64,000 bases of DNA. It comes from Bradyrhizobiaceae bacterium Ga0074131 (GTDB taxonomy: Bacteria > Pseudomonadota > Alphaproteobacteria > Rhizobiales > Xanthobacteraceae). This document shows positions 12,875 through 57,878 of this stretch, in pieces. The stretch covers positions 1 to 64,000 of the forward strand of contig LNEC01000019.1 of NCBI GenBank assembly GCA_001464035.1. Direction: 5' to 3'. A program made the translations under genes and the position numbers. The notes beneath the pieces are model-generated. The model made no database searches, was not told the origin of the DNA, and worked only from the letters and a program-made list of their open reading frames with translations. Numbering within the stretch: position 1 is the stretch's first letter; each line of letters starts with the position of its first letter.

Positions 12875-13246
12875 CTACACCACCGCCAGCTTACGGTCGA
12901 TCACCAGCAGCACACGATCGAGTTCCTGGCCGCGGCGCAGGATCAACCCGCTCGCCGATATCACACTGTAGATTCCCTGCTTGCGAGCAAGACGCGGATC
13001 CTTCTCGATGCGATAGATCGGGACCTCGGAAGCGCGGCGGAACACCGAGAACACCGCGCGCTCCCTCAGAAAGTCGATGGCGTAGTCGCGCCACTCGCCG
13101 TCGGCAACCATGCGGCCGTACAGATTCAGGATGCGATTGAGTTCGATGCGATTGAACGTCACAAGGCCCGGCACCGGACTAGCAGCGGCATTGCGCGCCG
13201 CTGCGCGGGCGTCGCTTGGATCGACTTCCTCCGACATTGAACCCAT
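12875..13246 (-). CDS. DUF2794 domain-containing protein
   Basis: VTFNRIELNRILNLYGRMVADGEWRDYAIDFL...REKAVFSVFRR-like; start at MGSMSEE. Confidence 0.82.
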   Translation of the reverse strand: MGSMSEEVDPSDARAAARNAAASPVPGLVTFNRIELNRILNLYGRMVADGEWRDYAIDFLRERAVFSVFRRASEVPIYRIEKDPRLARKQGIYSVISASGLILRRGQELDRVLLVIDRKLAVV

Positions 13247-13387
13247 TGGCCGCCTCCTTGTCATCTCCCCTGAATGATCGCGCCAACCGGGCGCGGCCGC
13301 AAGAGGCCCCCGCGGTCGAAATAGCCTGCGAGCGAGGGACCGCGCGCTCAAAACGCCGTCACGGGATCGTTAGCGTAATCATAATAC

Positions 13388-13567
13388 GGCCCAACTTCCG
13401 CCCAGCAGCCGCCCTGCTGGGTTGCAATAAACAATCACTGCGTTGGCCCGGTCCTTTCGGTTCCGGATTCCTCAGCCCCCAGCCCCCCGGGGCCGTCGGG
13501 ATCGGGCCTGTTCGCAGGATAGTTTATCCCCATCCTGGGCCAACGAAAGTTGGTCCTTTTTCTTTTT
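13388..13567 (+). ncRNA. Candidate structured non-coding RNA ending in an intrinsic terminator
   Basis: Intergenic; GGGCCAAC-GAAA-GTTGGTCC hairpin then TTTTTCTTTTT; further helices 13388-13397/13547-13556, 13441-13451/13535-13545, 13401-13408/13414-13421, 13515-13520/13532-13537. Confidence 0.5.
13537..13567 (+). terminator. Rho-independent terminator with GNRA (GAAA) loop
   Basis: GGGCCAAC GAAA GTTGGTCC TTTTTCTTTTT (one G-U wobble). Confidence 0.8.
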
Positions 13568-13722: not shown

Positions 13723-14499
13723 TCAGTGCAGTGACGTGTAGGCCGCGCCCAACATCGCGCCGGGCTTGTCGCGATTGCCGCCTTGGACAAAGACCACCGC
13801 GGCGTCGATGCCTTCCCGAGAGATATCTGCCAACGGCAAAGTCCAGCTCCCGGACGAGCCGTTCCAGTCCCCGACCTTGAGCAGGTCACGCACCACATTG
13901 TGGTAGGTGACTTTCTGGCCGCGATTCTCGCCCTTGCCGATGGCAATCGGCACCGACTTGGTGACCGAACAGATCCAGATCTCGCCAAGTGATTCGCCAA
14001 GGGAGGCGGCGGGCCCCCTCATCGAGGCTGCGACCGAAATGATCACATGCTTGCCGGTGAGCGAAATCGATACCGGCACCGACATCACGCCGTCGGCCTT
14101 CGTGGTCTCGCCGATCGCACTGTCGATCTTGGCACGGTCGCTGCCGATCACCTGCGCCGATCCATTGACGATGACCTGTGGCGTGTAGACGTTACGATCG
14201 CCCCGCGTATGCGAATAGGCCTTCTGACGCGCGCTGAACCGCGAATCCGCCAGCGTGTCCTTCCAGCCGAGATAGTCCCAGTAGTCGATCGGCATGCTCA
14301 GCGCGATCACGTCGGGATCCTTCGCCAGTTCGCCTATGATCCTGTCGGCCGGGGGACATGACGAACATCCCTGCGAGGTGAACAGCTCGACCACCGCGCG
14401 TGGCTCGGCATGGGCCGGACCGACGATCGCAACGATCGCGCAGACTCCAAGCGTGCCCGACCATCGCGAAAAGCAGTTATAGGCCATCAACACTGTCAT
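13723..14499 (-). CDS. DUF1223 domain-containing protein (thioredoxin-like, secreted)
   Basis: 258 aa; AVVELFTSQGCSSCPPADRIIGEL, YSHTRGDRNVYTPQVIVNG. Confidence 0.92.
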   Translation of the reverse strand: MTVLMAYNCFSRWSGTLGVCAIVAIVGPAHAEPRAVVELFTSQGCSSCPPADRIIGELAKDPDVIALSMPIDYWDYLGWKDTLADSRFSARQKAYSHTRGDRNVYTPQVIVNGSAQVIGSDRAKIDSAIGETTKADGVMSVPVSISLTGKHVIISVAASMRGPAASLGESLGEIWICSVTKSVPIAIGKGENRGQKVTYHNVVRDLLKVGDWNGSSGSWTLPLADISREGIDAAVVFVQGGNRDKPGAMLGAAYTSLH

Positions 14500-28523: not shown

Positions 28524-28749
28524 AATGCGAATATCGGCAAGGGGGTGACCGATCTCCCGCGTTCACGAAAACGCCATTCTGCCCCGGCTATTCTTGACTT
28601 TCCGGGCTTGGGGGGGTTTAACCGCCGCAATTCTCGGAAAGACCTTCTTTTCGACCCGCCGCCCGGCCCTTGAGGCCGGAGGTCAACGCCCGACAGCGCG
28701 ATGCGCCCTCGGGCGCAAAAGTGTTTGGTTCGGTGTCATCACCTGCCTT

Positions 28750-57853: not shown

Positions 57854-57878
57854 GGAACCTTCTGATTTCCTTCCCGTT
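57854..57878 (+). promoter_or_regulatory. Candidate EcfG (general stress response sigma factor) promoter
   Basis: GGAAC (57854-57858) - 16 nt - CGTT (57875-57878), immediately before the ABC transporter ATG at 57886. Confidence 0.6.

Follow-up and report, generated by a model that had tools for sequence, protein, structure and literature searches.

The small RNA gene lying between the DUF2794 and DUF1223 genes in the window (the whole stretch of 64,000 nucleotides that was analysed) is BjrC174, an sRNA already catalogued in soybean-root bacteria and thus not new at this locus. The unexpected part, and the one worth following, is that the family extends past its Rfam description, carries a near-invariant loop, and is frequently linked to DUF2794. 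BjrC174 very probably represents, in Bradyrhizobium, an ancient sRNA of Alphaproteobacteria in which a near-invariant AGCCCCC(C)-AGCCCC loop sits on a freely varying stem, with the gene normally divergent from DUF2794 and, in some lineages, present as tandem duplicates. The Rfam description does not reflect this breadth. Its most favored function, held at a probability of about 0.6, would be to act in trans as an sRNA, by pairing of its C-rich loop with G-rich sites in mRNAs.

Identity and conserved structure of the locus

A Rfam scan of the whole window returned RF02355 (BjrC174) at 13358-13560 on the plus strand, with a score of 192.3 bits and an E-value of 1.8e-38, passing the gathering cut-off of 45 bits and spanning the full length of the model (positions 1-201 of 201). 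The earlier note, which had itself proposed such a scan, had reported no match to a known family, and in this it was wrong. The source genome contains a single copy of BjrC174. Within the genus, 148 of 149 genomes carry RF02355 and the sole exception is 67% complete; in the wider family the count is 181/200 genomes. The only other Rfam match in the window is RF01793 (ffh sRNA) at 28672-28723 on the plus strand (65.6 bits).

Madhugiri et al. 2012 reportedly detected BjrC174 on RNA blots, with higher abundance in nodules. The literature searched contained no mention of RF02355 and no report of the C-rich loop sequence of BjrC174. The first description of this sRNA, as cited in PMC7143759, came from the initial Bradyrhizobium sRNA survey by the same authors. 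The B. japonicum promoter was validated with lacZ; it lies upstream of the start site, is active, and lacks a match to either the RpoD or the RpoN motif (PMC4842269).

Upstream of the hairpin, the locus carries the long conserved pattern TCACG..CGTTA..ATCATAAT..CGCCC, a block that is probably promoter or regulatory DNA and possibly includes the 5′ end of the RNA; it could be largely promoter. The Rfam model begins at 13358, a position that does not fix the transcription start in the genome of the window. A promoter motif search of the window gave no sigma-70 match for the locus, and no EcfG-type site (GGAAC-N15-19-CGTT) lies near it, the sole match in the window being at 57854. Most members of the order have a GUUGCCUC element upstream of the hairpin, which is replaced in the genus of the window. 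Between hairpin and terminator, many members of the bacterial family of the window carry a GGTTCAATCCCCC element, in place of which the window has AGTTTATCCCC. The DUF1223 gene adjoins the RNA in many relatives and is absent at a number of more distant loci.

Table 1. Parts of the BjrC174 locus and the flanking genes, in window coordinates
Feature	Coordinates	Strand	Basis or remark
DUF2794 gene (PF10984)	12875-13237	-	Pfam E 8.8e-40; divergent neighbor
Conserved upstream block, TCACGGGATCGTTAG...ATCATAAT...CGCC	13358-13436	+	First part of Rfam model
Main hairpin	13437-13518	+	Rfam structure, covariation, arm permutation
Basal stem of main hairpin	13437-13442/13513-13518		
Lower stem of main hairpin	13445-13455/13498-13508		
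Upper stem of main hairpin	13458-13466/13487-13495		
Apical C-rich loop, AUUCCUCAGCCCCCAGCCCC	13467-13486	+	Near-invariant in relatives; putative mRNA-binding site
Linker with AGUUUAUCCCC (13521-13531)	13519-13536	+	Sequence comparison; resembles GUUCAAUCCCC(C) element of several other Xanthobacteraceae
Intrinsic terminator stem-loop	13537-13556	+	Covariation and terminator prediction
U-rich tail of terminator	13557-13567	+	Sequence
DUF1223 gene (PF06764)	13723-14499	-	Convergent neighbor

The earlier note had described 13388-13567 as a candidate structured RNA with mutually exclusive helices. All of the segments it quoted are present at their positions, and its view that no convincing coding sequence occupies the stretch is shared here, as none is present. 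On the plus strand, the 180-nt stretch is predicted to fold more stably than all 200 shuffles (z -5.7), and the minus strand also beats its shuffles (z -4.2), so folding energy alone is weak evidence and conservation must decide. Helices were therefore compared in an alignment of 51 relatives from the family group, aligned by sequence only, with pairs counted for each proposed helix, and in an alignment-free test that set duplex energies between arms in their native combinations against 2000 permutations across 180 distinct loci.

The conserved parts of the RNA are the main hairpin and the terminator. The main hairpin was paired in 96.8% of cells among the 51 relatives, with two-sided changes at 10 pairs (0/500 shuffles) and 54 two-sided cells compared with 16 in shuffles. 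The plus-strand terminator proposed earlier, GGGCCAAC-GAAA-GTTGGTCC followed by TTTTTCTTTTT, is real and covaries, with 99.0% of cells paired, two-sided changes in 5/8 pairs, and 29 two-sided cells compared with 5.9 in shuffles. Counting pairs in related sequences makes them look more independent than they are, a weakness that the permutation test shares, but the latter contrasts helices on the same sequences, and there the main stem reached z -25.8 and the terminator z -27.4.

The remaining helices of the earlier note fared differently. The closing helix 13388-13397/13547-13556 appears in the minimum-energy fold of the single sequence from the window, and among the relatives it is paired in 66.9% of cells, not exceeding shuffles, and is not conserved. 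Neither is the small hairpin 13401-13408/13414-13421, paired in 51% of cells, nor the CAGGAT/ATCCTG hairpin 13515-13520/13532-13537, the 5′ arm of which overlaps the base of the main stem. The main hairpin and its C-rich apical loop were absent from the earlier list. Real structure is present and its terminator covaries in relatives; the mutually exclusive helices can be written, but covariation in relatives supports neither the alternative helix nor the closing helix and small hairpins.

The hairpin loop, CAGCCCCC(C)AGCCCCCC, is near-invariant in the 51 relatives of the family group, and CAGCCCCC..AGCCCCC is invariant in 51 diverse members of the order, bar one optional C. Of its 16-mer TCAGCCCCCAGCCCCC, the window contains one exact copy, against 0 expected. 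In the same 51 diverse order members, the lower stem is paired in 98.0% of cells with two-sided changes in 9/10 pairs (0/500 shuffles). A stem that varies freely yet stays paired, around a fixed loop, is as expected were the loop the working part. Among the matches listed for the loop in public genomes, a terminator follows 3′ in 95/119 loci, compared with 3/98 control positions.

Distribution and linkage to DUF2794

The family reaches across Hyphomicrobiales and into several further families of Alphaproteobacteria, in most cases lying divergent to DUF2794, and the figures given here are lower bounds owing to strict filters. RF02355 matched 124 of 398 genomes of the order at E ≤ 0.01 and exceeded the Rfam cut-off in only 34. 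Most of the weak loci have DUF2794 adjacent and divergent, which independently speaks for their being genuine, and 20 further loci, most of them under the cut-off, gave no match to any other Rfam family. A model of the core hairpin built from the order-wide comparison (R1) was found at E ≤ 0.01 in 100/149 genomes of the order. In 74 of these 100 the RNA lies divergent from DUF2794 within 1 kb (gap 160-558, median 292), and four have no DUF2794 match. Among the 96 genomes with both, the RNA lies elsewhere, more than 1 kb away, or in another orientation in 22, so it is kept without that neighbor. The 22-nt loop alone retrieved at least 119 loci from public genomes, with DUF2794 divergently adjacent in 99/119 among the matches listed, and the 80 titles listed for loop matches were Hyphomicrobiales, Alphaproteobacteria, or unspecific "Proteobacteria" bins.

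Outside the order, R1 lies divergent from DUF2794 within 1 kb in nine genomes and about 1.5 kb from it in two others. Several of these matches have weak E-values, for which the DUF2794 linkage is the main evidence, and most of the loci fold to the same design with different stems. In two of the nine, both alphaproteobacteria, the hairpin next to DUF2794 is duplicated in tandem, and a third copy lies at another site. Sampling across the phylum covered 200 genomes, a number that counts the whole sample and not the out-of-class genomes, and the sole match outside the class was marginal (E 0.047). Presence through much of Hyphomicrobiales and in other Alphaproteobacteria with an almost fixed loop indicates strong selection on a common function, making BjrC174 a good candidate for core regulation at the post-transcriptional level. 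DUF2794, a protein family of unknown function, gains a conserved genetic neighbor.

Mode of action and alternative explanations

As a trans-acting sRNA, BjrC174 would be transcribed on the plus strand, divergent from DUF2794, and ended by its intrinsic terminator. The long, rigid hairpin would hold out the unpaired C-rich loop, which would pair with G-rich sites of several mRNAs, probably near their ribosome-binding sites. A fixed loop, a free stem, an own terminator, and persistence apart from DUF2794 form the pattern of a trans-acting RNA. The earlier note had named a trans-acting sRNA among its options, and this suggestion fits, as RF02355 is an sRNA family, the element here has its own terminator, and BjrC174 is reported to be abundant in B. 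japonicum (PMC4842269). A search of the source genome for mRNA targets by loop complement found none: the exact complement occurs nowhere else, and complements with one mismatch are not enriched, with 60 in all compared with 98 for the reversed pattern, most of the sites examined lying inside open reading frames.

Protein binding is a serious alternative to mRNA pairing, if a rather unlikely one, and would make the RNA a decoy whose C-rich loop captures and titrates an RNA- or DNA-binding protein. In favor of a decoy, the loop has an unusual length and a rigidly conserved sequence containing two AGCCCCC blocks, and the genome lacks an extended mRNA complement; against it, no partner is known, and C-rich loops repeatedly serve to bind mRNA, as in GsrN (PMC5869019). 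A separate explanation is that the RNA acts mainly on its neighbor DUF2794, or has DUF2794 as its protein partner, either of which would account for the divergent arrangement seen in the order and in several further families. This is improbable, given that the RNA is unlinked, inverted, or more than 1 kb distant in the 22 genomes noted above, and that DUF2794 is the more widespread of the two (140 compared with 100 of 149 genomes, a difference to which missed weak RNA matches may contribute). The linkage may only mirror a shared divergent regulatory region, which the conserved upstream sequence would suit and which would explain it equally well. The AlphaFold model of DUF2794 is of fair quality (pLDDT 84), and comparing it with solved structures gave no significant match (best E 0.14). 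With no informative sequence match either, DUF2794 was rejected as a recognizable RNA-binding fold, and the literature searched offered nothing on DUF2794 relevant to this question.

The conformational switch proposed in the earlier note would have the 5′ arm of the main stem pair with the 5′ arm of the terminator, blocking termination. The complementary segments exist (13441-13451/13535-13545), folding of the single sequence yields the outer closing helix in preference to the terminator, and pairing of the alternative helix reaches 90.9% of cells among the 51 relatives, slightly above shuffles, with 6 two-sided cells. Yet across the 180 loci its native arm combinations did not outperform permuted ones (z -1.0), in contrast to the main stem and terminator, so the switch is not a selected feature across relatives, a statement that covers the relatives and not the single sequence from the window. 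Pairing of the two 3′ arms gave z -2.4, a value within the reach of shared ancestry and composition. Above the base of the main stem, GC to AU is the commonest two-sided change; it occurs in 17/51 sequences and leaves the main stem paired, but the pair of the alternative helix that shares a base with it is broken in 15 sequences. In addition, the gene downstream on the plus-strand side is convergent, leaving no mRNA for read-through control. With no conserved, covarying, mutually exclusive helices by either covariation or arm permutation, a switch or antiterminator RNA was rejected as an identity for the locus and is highly improbable as its mode of action.

Comparison with known small RNAs

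6S RNA (RF00013) is similar in size to the window RNA, and the earlier note had suggested a 6S-sized RNA. As an identification with 6S this is refuted, since the locus has no match to RF00013 and the same genome carries a separate 6S gene (contig C20, 75299-75459, 77 bits). EcpR1, a Sinorhizobium cell-cycle sRNA of the same order, also has a conserved hairpin loop and a terminator; its locus lies between divK-pleD and rpmG and its loop is UCCGCCGCAUCU (PMC4414408). Both the loop and these neighbors are absent here, and EcpR1 was rejected.

The general stress sRNA GsrN of Caulobacter, similar to BjrC174, displays an exposed C-rich loop, for which binding to G-rich sites in mRNAs is predicted (PMC5869019). 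Expression of GsrN depends on the general stress sigma factor, and GsrN homologs usually lie near the ecfG locus, whereas the neighbors here are DUF2794 and DUF1223 and no EcfG-type promoter was found. Membership in the GsrN family was rejected on promoter and neighborhood, and GsrN is retained as a mechanistic analogy. The closest comparison is with BjrC174 of Bradyrhizobium and Rhodopseudomonas, with which the window locus agrees in sequence and structure over its full length and without difference, including the hallmark long central hairpin and 3′ terminator hairpin. The Rfam title of RF02355 names Bradyrhizobiaceae, and the family reaches well past that group.
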